A stretch of DNA of 64,000 bases from a virus. The notes beneath the pieces were generated by a model that was not told the DNA's origin, ran no database searches, and saw only the letters and a list, made by a program, of their open reading frames with translations. How positions within the stretch are numbered: the first letter of the stretch is position 1; every line of letters begins with the position of its first letter. Shown one piece after another: positions 8,474-43,682 of the stretch. The stretch is taken from positions 1 to 64,000 of IMG/VR virus record IMGVR_UViG_3300034418_007369; one strand, given 5' to 3'. The translations under genes and the position numbers were made by a program.

Positions 8474-8728
8474 ATGGCTAGATCAAGAGACAGTAGAGCA
8501 AGGCATGAAACCGGAAAGACGATTACTTCTAAATCACAGTTCGGAAGTCACGCTGAAATGGTTGTAGATCATACTCAATATGGATTAACTTTAGAAGATG
8601 GGCAGGTTTTATTACAAGATGGTGGTCATTTTTATGTGACTAAATCTAATCGCCTAGATGATGGAACTGCCGACCCAGCGAGATATAGTGGTAAAAAACT
8701 ATACCTAGAGTCTGGCGGTGACTTATGA
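8474..8728 (+). CDS. Hypothetical protein, 84 aa
   Basis: ATG follows the previous stop with no gap; SD GGAGGA sits in the end of that gene. Basic N-terminus (MARSRDSRARHETGK) and a beta-rich remainder with Gly-Asp turns (YGLTLEDGQVLLQDGGHFYV). Overlaps the next ATG by 4 nt. Family unknown. Confidence 0.55.
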   Translation: MARSRDSRARHETGKTITSKSQFGSHAEMVVDHTQYGLTLEDGQVLLQDGGHFYVTKSNRLDDGTADPARYSGKKLYLESGGDL

Positions 8729-9090
8729 AATTCGTATACATACTAGAAATGATGATTCAAACTATTGATGGGGTTTTGAACGAGCCTATTGGTGTTTTCA
8801 CGGACGAAAAGGATGCAGACAAATGGCTAAAAGAATGTAAAGAATGTTTTAGCAATAAAACAACTGCGTTCAGTATTCTTCCAATAGAAATGGACATAAA
8901 GCCACCCCTGCTAGAAATGACTTCAGAAATTTCTGAAAAAAATATTGGACATCAGCTTGCAGAACTCTATAATCAAGATATATTTGAGCAGATGATCGAG
9001 CCTGACGGTAGTTTTTCTTATCAAATAAAAGATAAATACAAGTCCTCTATGGAAAAAGCTATGAGCAGGAAGTTTAAAAGAGGTAAATAA
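8725..9090 (+). CDS. Hypothetical protein, 121 aa
   Basis: Starts MKFVYILEMMIQTIDGVLNEPIGVFTDEKDADKWLKECKECF, a strand-strand-helix arrangement resembling small phage proteins that report a value with units such as date or temperature modifiers, but no family can be named. Basic tail (KAMSRKFKRGK). Last protein gene before the tmRNA. Confidence 0.5.
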   Translation: MKFVYILEMMIQTIDGVLNEPIGVFTDEKDADKWLKECKECFSNKTTAFSILPIEMDIKPPLLEMTSEISEKNIGHQLAELYNQDIFEQMIEPDGSFSYQIKDKYKSSMEKAMSRKFKRGK

Positions 9091-9095
9091 GCATG

Positions 9096-9320
9096 TATAA
9101 AGGTCTTATGGATGTTGTAGAGGACGGCGGGGCAGTACCGCCCACCTCCACTTACGGGGGTGAAATAGATTCGACTCACAATATGAAGTAACGTATCTCA
9201 TGCCGTAGTTGATAGAAGGGCTACGTTAAAAATCTATCAACATTTTAATTGCAGATGAAAGTCTCGCATTGGCAGCGTAAGCTGTCTGGGGTTTGCCAGT
9301 ACCTTATAGCCCAAACTGGC
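9096..9320 (+). ncRNA. ssrA: Circularly permuted tmRNA (tag ADESLALAA)
   Basis: The 3' tRNA-like half lies upstream of the 5' half. Acceptor piece: T-arm GGCGG-GGCAGTA-CCGCC (9126-9142), then CACCTCC (9143-9149) and discriminator A (9150), with no encoded CCA. After only five nt comes GGGGGTG (9156-9162), which pairs with all seven bases of CACCTCC (one G-U), followed by the tmRNA signature GATTCGAC. P2: ATGTTGT (9112-9118) with ACAATAT (9178-9184). PK1: CGTAG (9204-9208)/CTACG (9221-9225) with TTGATAG (9209-9215)/CTATCAA (9234-9240). Ten nt later a reading frame encodes ADESLALAA-stop (9251-9280). The stop sits in the loop of hairpin GGCAGC-GTAA-GCTGTC (P5). GTTTG/CAAAC and CCA/TGG (9291-9319) form a second pseudoknot. 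tmRNA with SmpB rescues stalled ribosomes and tags products for proteolysis. Exact ends are estimates. No smpB is seen in the window. Confidence 0.88.
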
Positions 9321-9324
9321 TTTC

Positions 9325-9397
9325 GGCCTCATCGTCTAATCGGTTAGGACACCGCCCTTTCACGGCGGCAATCGGGATTCGAGTTCCCGTGAGGTCA
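9325..9397 (+). tRNA. tRNA-Glu (UUC)
   Basis: Full cloverleaf of 73 nt: acceptor GGCCTCA/TGAGGTC with discriminator A, anticodon stem CCGCC/GGCGG with loop CTTTCAC (anticodon TTC at 9359-9361), T-arm CGGGA-TTCGAGT-TCCCG. No encoded CCA. It starts about 5 nt after the last tmRNA pseudoknot, so RNase P cleavage at its 5' end would also trim the tmRNA 3' end. Confidence 0.93.
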
Positions 9398-9662: not shown

Positions 9663-9944
9663 ATGAAATTACCAATATTATACAATTATGCCACATCTGC
9701 TGAAAGAAGAGAGGCTAGAAATCAATATATCGAGGATCAAGATGGACTTTGTTATTGGTGTAATTGCCCACTCGACGAAGATCCGCCAGATAAAATAACT
9801 TCCCAAGAAATAAATTTGGATATTTTTCCAGACGGTTTCCTGAATTTTCCAATACATTTGCAGCACGATCACGATTCAGGATTAACAGAAGGTGCTGTTC
9901 ATGCCTATTGCAATGCCGTTATGTGGCAATATCATGGAAGATAA
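9663..9944 (+). CDS. Small HNH/endonuclease VII-like nuclease, 93 aa
   Basis: Contains CYWCNCPL (CxxC metal knuckle), then HLQHDHDSGLTEGAVHAYCNAVMWQYHGR. This is the HxDHD-x-G ... GAVHAxCNAxxWxYHG arrangement of a compact phage HNH family related to endonuclease VII-type ββα-metal nucleases. Length about 90-100 aa is usual for them. It could be a branch-cleaving or packaging-linked nuclease rather than a homing enzyme, because it is small, co-directional and well integrated. Confidence 0.75.
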   Translation: MKLPILYNYATSAERREARNQYIEDQDGLCYWCNCPLDEDPPDKITSQEINLDIFPDGFLNFPIHLQHDHDSGLTEGAVHAYCNAVMWQYHGR

Positions 9945-38813: not shown

Positions 38814-39695
38814 GTGTCGCAGTTGATAGACCTAAAAAAAGACTTTGATTTGGGGAATAAATTTTTACTAGACGTAGCGTCAGAGCTATCTAACACTCTA
38901 GATGATAGTTATAGGGTTGTTATTAAGTATGATCTACAAGATTACAATATTCCAAAAGACGACAAGAAAAATATACTTTTTGCGCTGTCTAGAGAAACAC
39001 ATGAACTACCAAGATACACAGAAGACGAAAGGATTTTTCTTACGTTTCATAACTATGCTCCTTTAGACGCTTGGGGACATCCGATAAATCATCCGAAAGT
39101 TGTGCCGCTGCCGCTTGGATTCTTTATAAATGATATGACCTCCAAGGTTGAAGAAATAAAGCCTCACGAAGATAGAGAATATGACTTCTGTTTCGTTGGA
39201 CAGATACCGCATACCGGAACAAGAGATAAGTTTAAAAGATGTTTAGACAATATGCTAGAGCGCATAGGAAATAAATACAAATACTACGTCAAATATACTG
39301 AGTCTTTTGGTTGCGGCTTAGATCATCAAGAATATATTGACTTATTAAACAACTCAAAAATTTGCCTATGTCCGACTGGGGCATATAGTGATGAGTCTTT
39401 TAGATTTTTTGAATCTATAGCTATGGGGGCGTTCCCTATGGTTGAAATGCTGCCAAGGTTTTGGTATTATGAACAGGCACCAATGTTTTTCGCTAAATGG
39501 CAATTCTTAGATAGCTTTCTAGAAAATTCTTTAAATTTTTTACGATCTGAAAATAAAAGAGTTGCACTTGAACAAATTGTAAACTACAATAATACAATAT
39601 TGAATACTGTCACCCTTTCTGGATTTTTGAAAAAGATAATTGATGAACAGCAAATACATACCAATAAATTGCAAGACCCACTTCAGTCTCCTTAA
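38814..39695 (+). CDS. Exostosin-like glycosyltransferase (GT47-type)
   Basis: GTG start at 38814 with SD AAGGGGG. 293 aa. PLDAWGHPINHPKVVPLPLGFF, EYDFCFVGQIPHTGTRDKFKRCLDNML, then YIDLLNNSKICLCPTGAYSDESFRFFESIAMGAFPMV: the C-terminal donor site of exostosin-like GTs, with a D/E-S-x-R-x-F-E motif. Cytoplasmic, no leader. It overlaps the polymerase gene by 53 nt in another frame, tying glycan and replication genes into one transcript. Confidence 0.75.
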   Translation: MSQLIDLKKDFDLGNKFLLDVASELSNTLDDSYRVVIKYDLQDYNIPKDDKKNILFALSRETHELPRYTEDERIFLTFHNYAPLDAWGHPINHPKVVPLPLGFFINDMTSKVEEIKPHEDREYDFCFVGQIPHTGTRDKFKRCLDNMLERIGNKYKYYVKYTESFGCGLDHQEYIDLLNNSKICLCPTGAYSDESFRFFESIAMGAFPMVEMLPRFWYYEQAPMFFAKWQFLDSFLENSLNFLRSENKRVALEQIVNYNNTILNTVTLSGFLKKIIDEQQIHTNKLQDPLQSP

Positions 39696-41235
39696 AGGAT
39701 TCTCTAATCCCGATAGACTAGCGAAACTGTGCGCTTCATATAACTATGGGGCGTGCGTTCTTGCTGATGTCAACACTCTTTCTGGCGCCGTGAACTTTCA
39801 TCAGGCGTGTACGAAGAATGGCGTCAAGCCAATACTAGGACTAGACACAGAGCAATTCCTCCTAATTGCAAAGAATAAAGCTGGATGGCTAGACCTTATT
39901 AAATATTCTTCAGAAGAACAAGATATTGACACTCTGAAAAGAATAGCTGATAATGGCAACATTTTGTTTATAACAACAGAAGATAGTCCAGCCCAAAAGA
40001 AAATGTGGGGAAAGAATTATTTTTGTTATGATTATATTTCTGATGCGGTGTATTATTGCACCAAAGAAGAAGCAGAGCTACATAGAATCATTCTGTGTTC
40101 TGGGATGAAAACCAGCATTCCGAAAGTTACGGCAAAGCTGCAAAAGGGAGAAGATTTTGAAAACAAACACTTCTTTACAAGTGAAGATTATTGCTTAAAG
40201 CCGACAAGCAGAGTCACAGGTAATAAAAAATTATTTGACGCACTCGCTTCGTGCGAAGAGTATGAAATCACCGGAAAGCCAATGCTGCCAGAGTTTGATG
40301 TGCCTGAAGGGTTTGATAGTGATGAGTATCTTAAAGAGCTTTGTCGGCATGGTTGGAAATCTAAACTCGCCCCCGCTGGCAAAGTGTCCGACCCAAAACA
40401 GAAAGAAATCTATCTGCAAAGAGTAAAGACTGAGCTTGAAGTTATCTTTAAGGCTAATCTTAGTGGTTATTTTTTGATCGTGCAAGATATTGTCAATTAT
40501 GTTAAAAATCGTGGCTGGATCGCTGGTCCCGGTCGAGGATCTGCTGCCGGGTGTTTGATCTCTTATTTAGTTGGAATCACAGAAGTTGATCCAATTGAAT
40601 TTGACTTACTCTTTGAGAGATTTTATAACGAGGGACGGAATACGGAAGATCACGTCTCGCTTCCAGATGTTGATATGGATGTTCCCGCAGAACATCGAGA
40701 CGAAGTAATTGACTACATTAAAGAAAAGTATGGAATTGATAAGGTCTCCCAGATGGTAACATTTGGTAAACTACAAGGTCGCGCGGCGATCAAAGAAGTT
40801 TTAAGAATCAATGATGCTGTATCTTTTTCTGAAATGAACGCTATTACAGATAGTATTCCAGATGAAGCTAAAATTTCTGACCAGCTAGAACTCATGGAAG
40901 ATAAGTCTATTATCAGATGGGCGCTAGAAAACGAATCAGAAGCGCTAAAGAGCTGGTGCTATTATGATGAAGAAGGAAACTTAGAAGGACCGCTATCAAG
41001 ATATTTTGAACAAGCTATTAAAATTGAAGGAACAAATAAATCTCAGGGCAAACATGCTGCCGGTGTAATTATATCTAAACATCCACTAGCAGAGGTTTGT
41101 CCAATGGTTAAAGACAAGAATGGTAAAATGATTGCCGCGCTTGAGATGAATGACCTAGAGGCTATGGGTCATGTTAAGTTTGATGTTCTTGGAATTGACT
41201 TGTTAAGTAAAATTATGGAAATATGTGAGGATTAA
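39643..41235 (+). CDS. dnaE-N: DNA polymerase III alpha, N-terminal part (PHP-like + palm with all catalytic Asp)
   Basis: 530 aa, ATG 39643. A shortened PHP-like domain (THFSLLKGFSNPDRLAKL ... GVKPILGLDTE) has lost most metal ligands. The palm follows: GPGRGSAAGCLISYLVGI (about residue 294), PDVDMDVP (about 341, two catalytic Asp) and GHVKFDVLG with the third Asp at residue ~514. The ORF then ends after LLSKIMEICED. The fingers, HhH and OB parts are on the second gene at 42141. End and restart are seamless in the DnaE alignment I remember, so nothing is lost. No intein motif at the end. An in-trans two-chain C-family polymerase is the simplest reading. Confidence 0.92.
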   Translation: MNSKYIPINCKTHFSLLKGFSNPDRLAKLCASYNYGACVLADVNTLSGAVNFHQACTKNGVKPILGLDTEQFLLIAKNKAGWLDLIKYSSEEQDIDTLKRIADNGNILFITTEDSPAQKKMWGKNYFCYDYISDAVYYCTKEEAELHRIILCSGMKTSIPKVTAKLQKGEDFENKHFFTSEDYCLKPTSRVTGNKKLFDALASCEEYEITGKPMLPEFDVPEGFDSDEYLKELCRHGWKSKLAPAGKVSDPKQKEIYLQRVKTELEVIFKANLSGYFLIVQDIVNYVKNRGWIAGPGRGSAAGCLISYLVGITEVDPIEFDLLFERFYNEGRNTEDHVSLPDVDMDVPAEHRDEVIDYIKEKYGIDKVSQMVTFGKLQGRAAIKEVLRINDAVSFSEMNAITDSIPDEAKISDQLELMEDKSIIRWALENESEALKSWCYYDEEGNLEGPLSRYFEQAIKIEGTNKSQGKHAAGVIISKHPLAEVCPMVKDKNGKMIAALEMNDLEAMGHVKFDVLGIDLLSKIMEICED

Positions 41236-41451
41236 ATGAATGCTACAAAAGAAGAATATATGTCTGTGATTTTTTCTGGTTGCAGTATTGACTATAAAGA
41301 TATTACATTTTGTAATTTGGCTAATCACTATAGAAGATTGGCAAGATCAAATGAATATCAAGTATGGTCAGACAGACAAAACGAATATCACCTATTTAAA
41401 AATATCGAAGATGCTGTTGATAAGTTTATTGAACTAAAGAAAAGGAAGTAA
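41236..41451 (+). CDS. Hypothetical 71-aa protein between polymerase halves
   Basis: ATG directly after the polymerase stop codon. Helix-strand-strand-helix pattern (YKDITFCNLANHYRRLARSNEYQVWSDRQNEYHLFKNIEDAVDKFIELKKR) like small DNA-binding or regulatory proteins of phages. No nuclease motif, so it is not an obvious homing relic. One nt from the exonuclease gene. Function unknown. Confidence 0.55.
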   Translation: MNATKEEYMSVIFSGCSIDYKDITFCNLANHYRRLARSNEYQVWSDRQNEYHLFKNIEDAVDKFIELKKRK

Positions 41452-41452
41452 C

Positions 41453-42148
41453 ATGGCGAACTATAGAGATATTATTGTTTTTGACTTTGAGACCGGCGGC
41501 GCTAATCCATATACGTGTCAGCCAACTCAAATCGCGGCTGTGGCTATCCACGCTAGAAAGCTAGAGCTACAGCCCGGAGGCGTGTTTAACAGCGAGATTC
41601 GCCCTATTATCGACGACGATGAGGCCATTAAAGCGGGAGTCGGCCCGTTGGAGGAAGAGGCTCTGCGGGTAACGCGCAAAAACCGTGACGACCTAGCAAA
41701 AGCACCTTTGCCCAAAACAGTATGGAAAAAGTTTGCTCAGTTTTGCGACAAATATAATTTTAAGAAAACTAATTATTATGCACCTATCGCTGCTGGCTAT
41801 AATATCAATGGCTTTGATATGCCTATTGTGGAGAGAATGTGTCAACAATATGGTCCAACTCATGCAAAGAATGGCAGGCAGGGAATCTTTAACCCTATTT
41901 TTACCATTGATGTAATGCAACATATTTACTGCTGGTTTGAAAACAATACAGAAGTAAAGGGATATGGTATGGATTACTTGCGCGACTATTTTGGAATGAG
42001 TCAGGCTAGTAAGGATAATGCTCACGATGCGTTGCAAGACGTTAAGGATACCGCTAATATCATGATTAAGTTCATGAAATTGCAAAGAACATTGCTACAT
42101 AAAGTTAAATTTGAAAAAACATTTGCGAACGGGGATATTTATGTCTAA
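41453..42148 (+). CDS. dnaQ: DEDDh 3'-5' exonuclease (DnaQ-like proofreading subunit)
   Basis: 231 aa. Exo motifs: VFDFETGGANPYTCQPTQIAAVAI (D-x-E, residues ~9-13), AAGYNINGFDMPIV (Asp), and NAHDALQDVKDTANIMIKF (H-x4-D), i.e. the DEDDh set. The C-terminus (RTLLHKVKFEKTFANGDIYV) may contact the polymerase. Location between the two halves of the alpha subunit and 8-nt overlap with the second half make it the probable epsilon-type proofreader. Confidence 0.9.
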   Translation: MANYRDIIVFDFETGGANPYTCQPTQIAAVAIHARKLELQPGGVFNSEIRPIIDDDEAIKAGVGPLEEEALRVTRKNRDDLAKAPLPKTVWKKFAQFCDKYNFKKTNYYAPIAAGYNINGFDMPIVERMCQQYGPTHAKNGRQGIFNPIFTIDVMQHIYCWFENNTEVKGYGMDYLRDYFGMSQASKDNAHDALQDVKDTANIMIKFMKLQRTLLHKVKFEKTFANGDIYV

Positions 42149-43682
42149 ATTTGACATTAATAATTTTGAAGATGAAGAAGTTTGGGATTTGATTTGCGAA
42201 GGACGCACAAAGGGCGTTTTTCAACTTGAGTCTAGCCTTGGTAAGCATTGGGCTAAAGAAGTCAAACCCAGAAGCATCAGTGAATTAGCGGCTCTTATTT
42301 CGTTGATTCGTCCCGGCTGTTTGAAGGCTTACACAGATGGTAAATCCATGACACAGCACTATGCGGATAGAAAAAAGGGAACTGATGCTGTTGATTACCC
42401 AGATGATTCTTTGGAGCCTATTCTAAAAGGAACCTATGGTGTTTTGGTATACCAAGAGCAAAGCATGAAAATCGCCCAGCAACTAGCTGGGTTTGACCTT
42501 AAAGAAGCTGATTCGCTTCGTAAGGCTATTGGTAAAAAGAAAGCTGAACTCATGGAAGAAATGAAACAGGTCTTTATGGATGGCGCCGAAAAGCAGGGGA
42601 TTATCAAGAAGGAAGTGGCGGGAGAGATTTTTTCATGGATCGAGAAGTCTAACCGCTACGCCTTCAACAAAAGTCACGCTGTTTCATATGCTATTGATGC
42701 ATACTGGAGCGCGTACTGTAAATGTCATAGATTAGAGAGGTTTTACGTGAGTTACATGAATCGCTCTGACCGTAAGCCAAAGCCTGAGATTGAGCTAAAA
42801 CAGCTTATCATGGATGCTAAGATGCATGGGCTAGACACCTATCCGCCAAGGCTTAATCACATGCACACAAATTTTCTACATGAGAATGGTAAAATTTATT
42901 TTGGTATGAGGCACATTAAAAATGTAGGCACGAAAGAGTGTGATAAAATTGAAGAATTAAAACAAACAGAAGATTTGTCTTTGTTTACTTGGATGGATTG
43001 TCTTATCAAGATTGTTCACCGTACCAAGATCAACAAGCGAGCGGCAATTGCTATGATTTCTGTTGGTGCGTTTAATGGCAAGAACAATAGAGAGTCTCGC
43101 CAGAAAATGCTGTATGAATATGATAGCTGGAATAATCTTTCTGCAAGAGAAAAAGATGCCATCGCTGATAATTACAAAAGTAATTTAACTTTGGCTCAGT
43201 GTGTAGACCTGCTATCAGACTGGGTTAAGATTAATTCTAGAAGGGCGCAAGCGATAGAGGACATCAAGCAGTCTCTCATTTCGCCATTCTATAGCCTAGA
43301 TGACGATCCCGCCTCTATTGCAGATTATGAAATTAAATTAATGGGGTGTGCCTTGACATGCAGTAAGGCAGATTCTATAAATATTTCTACAAATATGTGC
43401 AAAGATGTGACACAGGGTACTATAAGAGGTAAGGTAAATCTTTCTGTGATGATTAATTCTATCCGTACCTATAAAACTAAAAAGGGAAAGAATCCCGGCC
43501 AAGAGATGGCTTTTTTGTGTATTGAAGACGCGAGCGGCGAACTGGATTCCGTTACAATTTTTCCAGAAGCATTTATAAAATATAAAGATTTATTGATAGA
43601 AAGAAACACTGTCTTCATAGATGGTGAGGTTTCTAAGAGGGATAAAAATTCCATCGTTGTTAATAAAGTTATACAAGTTTGA
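42141..43682 (+). CDS. dnaE-C: DNA polymerase III alpha, C-terminal part (fingers, HhH, OB fold)
   Basis: 513 aa from ATG 42141. It begins in the linker of DnaE and at once reads CEGRTKGVFQLESSLGKHW, the fingers motif; then ISLIRPGCLKAYTDGKSM, GVLVYQEQSMKIAQQLAGFDLKEADSLRKAIGKKK, and NRYAFNKSHAVSYAIDAYWSAY. HhH-like region near FGMRHIKNVGTKECDKIEEL, and a C-terminal OB fold (INSIRTYKTKKGKNPGQEMAFLCIEDASGELDSVTIFPE). In cyanobacterial DnaE the split intein sits at the YxFNKSH position; here that site is uninterrupted and the split is elsewhere. Confidence 0.92.
   Translation: MSKFDINNFEDEEVWDLICEGRTKGVFQLESSLGKHWAKEVKPRSISELAALISLIRPGCLKAYTDGKSMTQHYADRKKGTDAVDYPDDSLEPILKGTYGVLVYQEQSMKIAQQLAGFDLKEADSLRKAIGKKKAELMEEMKQVFMDGAEKQGIIKKEVAGEIFSWIEKSNRYAFNKSHAVSYAIDAYWSAYCKCHRLERFYVSYMNRSDRKPKPEIELKQLIMDAKMHGLDTYPPRLNHMHTNFLHENGKIYFGMRHIKNVGTKECDKIEELKQTEDLSLFTWMDCLIKIVHRTKINKRAAIAMISVGAFNGKNNRESRQKMLYEYDSWNNLSAREKDAIADNYKSNLTLAQCVDLLSDWVKINSRRAQAIEDIKQSLISPFYSLDDDPASIADYEIKLMGCALTCSKADSINISTNMCKDVTQGTIRGKVNLSVMINSIRTYKTKKGKNPGQEMAFLCIEDASGELDSVTIFPEAFIKYKDLLIERNTVFIDGEVSKRDKNSIVVNKVIQV

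Follow-up and report, generated by a model that had tools for sequence, protein, structure and literature searches.

A locus in the phage DNA analyzed here (the window, 64,000 nucleotides of an IMG/VR virus record of 80,291 bases) raises the question of whether a phage can carry a functional tmRNA gene whose two halves lie in permuted order, and of what the five nucleotides between these halves represent. The record encodes phage proteins including a ribonucleotide reductase, a DnaB-like helicase, a DNA polymerase and a tail tape-measure-like protein, and contains one permuted tmRNA gene. An earlier note, made from the letters, had read the 3′ half as preceding the 5′ half and had proposed a search with the Rfam models. 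The tmRNA_permuted model (RF04321) matches with 93.5 bits (gathering threshold 47, E-value 8.5e-17), and ARAGORN classifies the gene as a permuted tmRNA (tmRNA*) whose tag reads ADESLALAA. The alpha_tmRNA model (RF01849) reaches 55.0 bits against a gathering threshold of 50, and the beta and cyano tmRNA models of Rfam gave no match above threshold in the window. Positions 9091 to approximately 9320 are thus confirmed as a genuine circularly permuted tmRNA gene, with a score far above chance.

All features of the locus lie on the plus strand. The acceptor piece (9091..9150), delimited by the sequence, by the RF04321 match starting at 9091 and by covariation in 24 relatives, begins with the P2 end strand GCATG (9091-9095). 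As this strand pairs with CATGC at 9199-9203, the start at 9096 given in the note had to be moved to 9091, directly behind the stop codon (TAA, 9088-9090) of an upstream gene (8725..9090) that has no PHROG or Pfam match. The sequence of the acceptor piece continues with GGAC (9122-9125), the T-arm GGCGG-GGCAGTA-CCGCC (9126-9142), the acceptor 3′ strand CACCTCC (9143-9149) and the discriminator A73 (9150). The spacer (IVS) CTTAC (9151-9155), delimited by sequence and by comparison of spacer lengths, encodes no CCA, and the junction around it reads CACCTCCACTTACGGGGGTG, an empty-site form (see below). The coding piece (9156..9320, with an approximate 3′ end), as placed by sequence, ARAGORN and Rfam, opens with the acceptor 5′ strand GGGGGTG (9156-9162), so that the two halves form a 7-bp acceptor stem (GGGGGTG/CACCTCC) with a G3-U70 wobble and A9150 as A73. 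The G3-U70 wobble is a tRNA-Ala feature. Further elements are a D-like UUCGAC (TTCGAC in the DNA, 9170-9175) and PK1 (9204-9240), with its stems CGTAG/CTACG (9204-9208/9221-9225) and TTGATAG/CTATCAA (9209-9215/9234-9240). The tag frame called by ARAGORN runs from the resume codon GCA to the stop TAA (9251..9280, ADESLALAA*), with GGCAGC/GCTGTC closing the GUAA loop that holds this stop, and is followed by the P5 hairpin and by a terminal pseudoknot (~9288-9320). The seven-base pairing, PK1, the tag with its stop in a GNRA-type loop, the downstream pseudoknot and the CCA-less five-nucleotide spacer that the note had described could therefore all be located. Four nucleotides past the coding piece lies a tRNA-Glu(TTC) gene (9325-9397; ARAGORN; RF00005, 58.9 bits), which likewise encodes no CCA.

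Folding energies exceed those of shuffles modestly and lend weak support to this structure (minimum free energy, z -2.1 for the gene and -1.15 for the coding piece alone), as is expected for a pseudoknotted RNA, and the case was therefore built on covariance models and covariation. Among the 24 relatives, stem 1 of PK1 is paired in 120 of 120 cells (shuffles: mean 102, maximum 110) and stem 2 occurs as 14 different complementary helices, the 3′ strands of PK1 having been placed at their best-fitting position in a short window, which slightly favours the pairing counts. The P2 end is paired in 118/120 cells; neither PK1 nor P2 pairing served to select the relatives. The acceptor stem is paired in 168/168 cells, a biased count since acceptor pairing was the selection criterion by which most sequences were chosen; more informative are its compensated forms, such as GGGCGAT/ATCGTCC (L193) and GGGCGTG/CACGTCC, with G3-U70 kept in all variants. 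The tag ADESLALAA is identical in the window and in four relatives (L024, L113, L191, L203). The tmRNA of the window is 99.6% identical to those of L024 and L203 and 92.6% identical to that of L113, and the adjacent upstream gene is only 77% identical between the window and L024. The tRNA gene behind the tmRNA is exchanged among relatives while the tmRNA stays: it is a tRNA-Glu in L024, as in the window, but a tRNA-Asn in L113 (5245-5317) and L203 (8786-8858).

Permuted tmRNA genes are not new to phages, contrary to what the note had supposed. Phage Melnitz was reported in 2022 to carry a two-piece tmRNA, public phage genomes hold 53 two-piece forms among 133 unique tmRNA structures, and 50 of these 53 come from marine or aquatic phages (PMC9004378). 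Our own scan of IMG/VR with a permuted-core pattern, which admitted spacers of 5-32 nt, returned at least 120 stretches, nearly all with a permuted core and with spacers spanning that range. Like the phage of the window, Melnitz encodes an ssrA in circularly permuted order, with one precursor cut in two; the authors relate its gene to those of Alphaproteobacteria/SAR11 and report a link with a glutamine riboswitch (PMC9004378). By this description, the window differs from it in its standard-type acceptor piece, its CCA-less 5-nt spacer and its downstream tRNA-Glu, and no riboswitch family of Rfam matched in the window. At the DNA level, the nearest isolate phages gave matches in the tRNA-Glu part only. 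The spacer CTTAC recurs, without CCA, in six relatives (L024, L113, L191, L203, L205, L215). It is not the shortest known, as 5-nt spacers with CCA exist in bacterial genomes, including Alphaproteobacteria; CCA-less bacterial spacers are rare (two, of 6 and 7 nt). A candidate 8-nt CCA-less spacer (L128) turned out to be the start of a standard-order tmRNA, and in two contigs (L188, L204) the halves of a related permuted tmRNA are separated by roughly 170 nt, with no ORF noticed in this spacer. By itself, a permuted phage tmRNA is a further member of a reported class, and the family to which the window gene belongs is more telling.

Searches with PK1- and tag-like sequences brought up coding pieces that seemed to lack an acceptor piece in their vicinity. 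The missing piece was found farther upstream, at a distance of about 600 nt that is occupied by an ORF, so that four of these loci (L213, L214, L217, L194) are not half-gene "split tmRNAs": their acceptor piece lies behind an endonuclease gene. A search with the ORF recovered nine contigs (57-100% identity), in all of which it lies between the acceptor and the coding piece, and two distant relatives located elsewhere; a profile search added L236/L237/L238 and L250, with the gene in the same spacer position. In total, 11 distinct phage cases carry an HNH/endonuclease-VII-like gene of about 180 codons in the spacer of a permuted tmRNA gene (L213, L214, L217, L194, L219, L222, L223, L224, L225, L238, L250), L236/L237/L238 being one sequence in three contigs that was counted once. 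The ORF mostly stops within or just past the acceptor 5′ strand (AAT CGG GGG TGA), and its frame extends further into the tmRNA in L225, L226, L238 and L250. The protein matches PHROG families of endonucleases (phrog_3322, 1.4e-28), EndoVII (phrog_1035, 1.5e-18) and HNH proteins (phrog_3118, 1e-12), and is 46% identical to "endonuclease" genes of uncultured human-gut phages. It has no Pfam match, and a PDB profile search returned nothing relevant. An AlphaFold model reached a pLDDT of 73 with 18 sequences (37 with 9), and Foldseek found nothing significant for the better model; the endonuclease tree branches mostly without resolution. The interrupted genes that were tested fall below the RF04321 threshold and are missed by ARAGORN, which implies that censuses undercount endonuclease-interrupted tmRNA genes.

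The spacer gene is probably a homing endonuclease gene, as judged from four features of the sequences: empty and occupied alleles, remnant-like spacers, a hairpin over the ribosome-binding site and T-arm variants that resemble co-conversion. The window and the occupied locus L217 are collinear on both sides, aligning up to 9154 and again from 9155, with about 600 additional nucleotides in L217 and 82% DNA identity in the upstream gene; an empty (L215) and an occupied (L213) locus show the same pattern. By these alignments, the spacer of the window is the empty form of a site that is occupied in relatives. One spacer (L197) has bases resembling both insert ends and another (L118) a promoter-like remnant. 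Of the 12 loci folded, 10 sequester the ribosome-binding site in a hairpin whose loop contains a promoter-like site (z -2.3 to -5.7); the exceptions are L222, where the hairpin is weak (z -1.6), and L225, where the site pairs with the acceptor strand instead. A T-arm variant with a CTCGTTA loop is common to the occupied copies L218-L220 and to L197, which is consistent with co-conversion. I-TevI, SegB and MobE have the same hairpin-sequestered arrangement (PMC2988022). The T4-type endonucleases SegB, found between tRNA genes, and MobE, splitting nrdA in Aeh1, further share with the relatives an internal promoter-like site and an insertion between pieces that are still able to assemble (PMC2988022). 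The spacer gene differs from them in its putative target, the tmRNA acceptor junction, and in the literature searched we found no homing gene directed at that junction. Group I introns in the T-loop of tmRNA genes, some with LAGLIDADG homing genes (PMC11915505), also bring in an endonuclease gene without destroying the RNA, but the gene in the relatives is HNH-like, lies between the two halves of a permuted tmRNA and is accompanied by no group I intron matched by Rfam. In the available text of the current tmRNA database paper, such spacers are described with a tRNA gene or a repeat only, and homing genes are confined to introns of the T-loop. In the relatives, the discarded spacer houses a protein-coding gene, which probably encodes a homing endonuclease.

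We regard it as quite probable that the window carries a functional phage-encoded two-piece tmRNA gene whose spacer is the empty state of this homing site. Function is argued by the complete set of conserved elements, the alanine identity given by G3-U70 and A73, the covarying helices, the tag frame and a conservation above that of the upstream gene. RNase P would cut the transcript at two places, ahead of G9156 and at the tRNA-Glu that follows, and cleavage at the 5′ end of this tRNA could free the 3′ end of the tmRNA. The end at A9150 would be trimmed and receive its CCA from host enzymes; the two pieces would remain paired, be charged by the host AlaRS and act with the host SmpB, no SmpB gene having been found in the 80-kb record. 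Stalled ribosomes would in this way be rescued during infection and truncated proteins tagged with ADESLALAA. The rare CCA-less 5-nt spacer could hinder processing. Because the mature RNA would no longer contain the spacer, insertion of an endonuclease gene there should be nearly cost-free.

The gene might instead be a passenger, a copy of a host ssrA acquired by imprecise excision or serving as an integration site, with no function for the phage. The ssrA gene is indeed a common integration site and leaves fragments in prophages (PMC9004378), but the window gene is complete and covarying, its acceptor piece is of the standard type and differs from the sampled alphaproteobacterial genes, its neighbourhood is common to several phages, and 99.6% conservation next to a gene at 77% is hardly that of a relic; we consider this origin highly improbable. 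An expressed RNA could also act chiefly as a competitor of the host tmRNA and not in tagging, in the manner of the CDS-less tmRNA of phage DS6A, which is reported to inhibit host tmRNA (PMC11915505). Another phage contig (L051) does hold an apparently CDS-less tRNA-like domain with an identical T-loop. Against such a decoy, which seems unlikely to us, stand the PK1, the resume codon and the open tag frame ending in LAA that the window retains, and a tag unchanged in four relatives. The domain in L051 (~744-852 of a 101.6-kb phage contig) is in standard order with the T-loop GGCAGTA, and is DS6A-like.

A third alternative bears on the lineage of the gene and not on its identity as a tmRNA: phages would have received the alphaproteobacterial permuted lineage by transfer, in the way suggested for Melnitz, so that the permutation had no separate origin and the standard-order phage relatives are reversions. 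This history, to which we assign not far short of an even chance, is favoured by the alpha_tmRNA score just above threshold and by the T-loop GGCAGTA, for which the note had named similar alphaproteobacterial loops, in agreement with the RF01849 consensus GGCgGUA. RF04321 and RF01849 indeed share with the window the permuted tRNA-like domain, the GGCxGUA T-loop, the acceptor stem and the tag. A tree also groups all permuted genes but one together with four standard phage genes (95/83), and a single permuted clade is not rejected by the AU test (p 0.55). However, the true alphas sampled score 115-311 bits with alpha_tmRNA, and exchange as a module best accounts for the alpha-like T-loop of the window, because an alpha-like phage gene (L034) has the same T-arm and acceptor strand. 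The acceptor piece of the window has TAAGCATGTAT and bears the TAAGCATGTAG signature with which the acceptor pieces of its clade open, TAAGCATGTAG being the P2 strand of one-piece tmRNAs. With at most two mismatches, TAAGCATGTAG occurs in 17 of 21 members of the window clade, in all six phage genes of standard order (6/6) and in 13 of 17 bacterial ones; it is found in none of 56 permuted genes of mostly alphaproteobacterial origin and in none of 102 alpha-like permuted genes of phages (chance level: about 0.6% of random window stretches). An alpha-type acceptor piece, CTATGGCGATAAA-like and without TAAGCATGTAG, was not found in the window, whose acceptor 5′ end is not of the CTATGGCGATAAA type and whose entry into PK1 is of the GCATGCCG type, as in E. 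coli. Trees of the 165-nt coding piece place the window clade apart from the alpha clade, with AU p values of 0.43-0.57 that favour no particular origin, in a comparison that included one cyanobacterial and no betaproteobacterial permuted sequence. The presence of TAAGCATGTAG in the acceptor piece and its absence from the sampled alpha-type permuted genes suggest, at the level of sequence motifs, a separate phage lineage; the window clade may have had a beta-like ancestor. The permuted tmRNA of L034 (reverse complement, from ~7090 onward) has a very short coding piece without a clear PK1, in which hardly anything separates the tRNA-like part from the tag.

How a separate phage lineage could have become permuted is suggested by standard-order genes. 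Six loci (L251, L243, L240, L247, L246, L245) have homologues of the endonuclease directly 3′ of full-length standard-order phage tmRNAs (RF00023, 88.6-127.9 bits, gathering threshold 47). All but L246 had been candidates for trans-encoded cases, which their standard-order tmRNAs ruled out, and L240 and L243 have no match among isolate phages. The endonuclease lies beside tmRNAs of both orders and therefore tracks the tmRNA acceptor end. We propose, tentatively and as something appreciably short of probable, that the window belongs to a phage permuted-tmRNA lineage beyond the three known bacterial ones, arisen beside an HNH homing gene at the acceptor end. Tandem duplication of the unit standard tmRNA - endonuclease gene, followed by loss of the outer halves, would yield the order acceptor piece - endonuclease gene - coding piece, and later loss of the endonuclease gene would leave a short spacer as in the window. 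The endonuclease behind standard-order tmRNAs thus offers a concrete route to permuted tmRNA genes, and the coexistence in phages of standard-order and permuted members beside the same endonuclease family makes the origin of the permutation testable.

Several further observations concern the surroundings of these genes. Extra HNH-like genes seem to come after the endonuclease homologue in L243 and L246, and in L251 a GOLLD RNA (157-541, 204.9 bits) precedes the phage tmRNA by about 1 kb, along with several tRNAs. In the window, a 93-aa ORF with a weak match to endonuclease VII (9663-9944; phrog_423, 7.5e-6; Pfam just below the cut-off) lies close downstream of the tmRNA-tRNA pair. Farther away, a DNA polymerase III alpha-like gene (39640-43682) is split into two ORFs (39640-41235 and 42111-43682); the interval between them holds an ORF of 71 aa and another for an RNase_T exonuclease (41453-42148).
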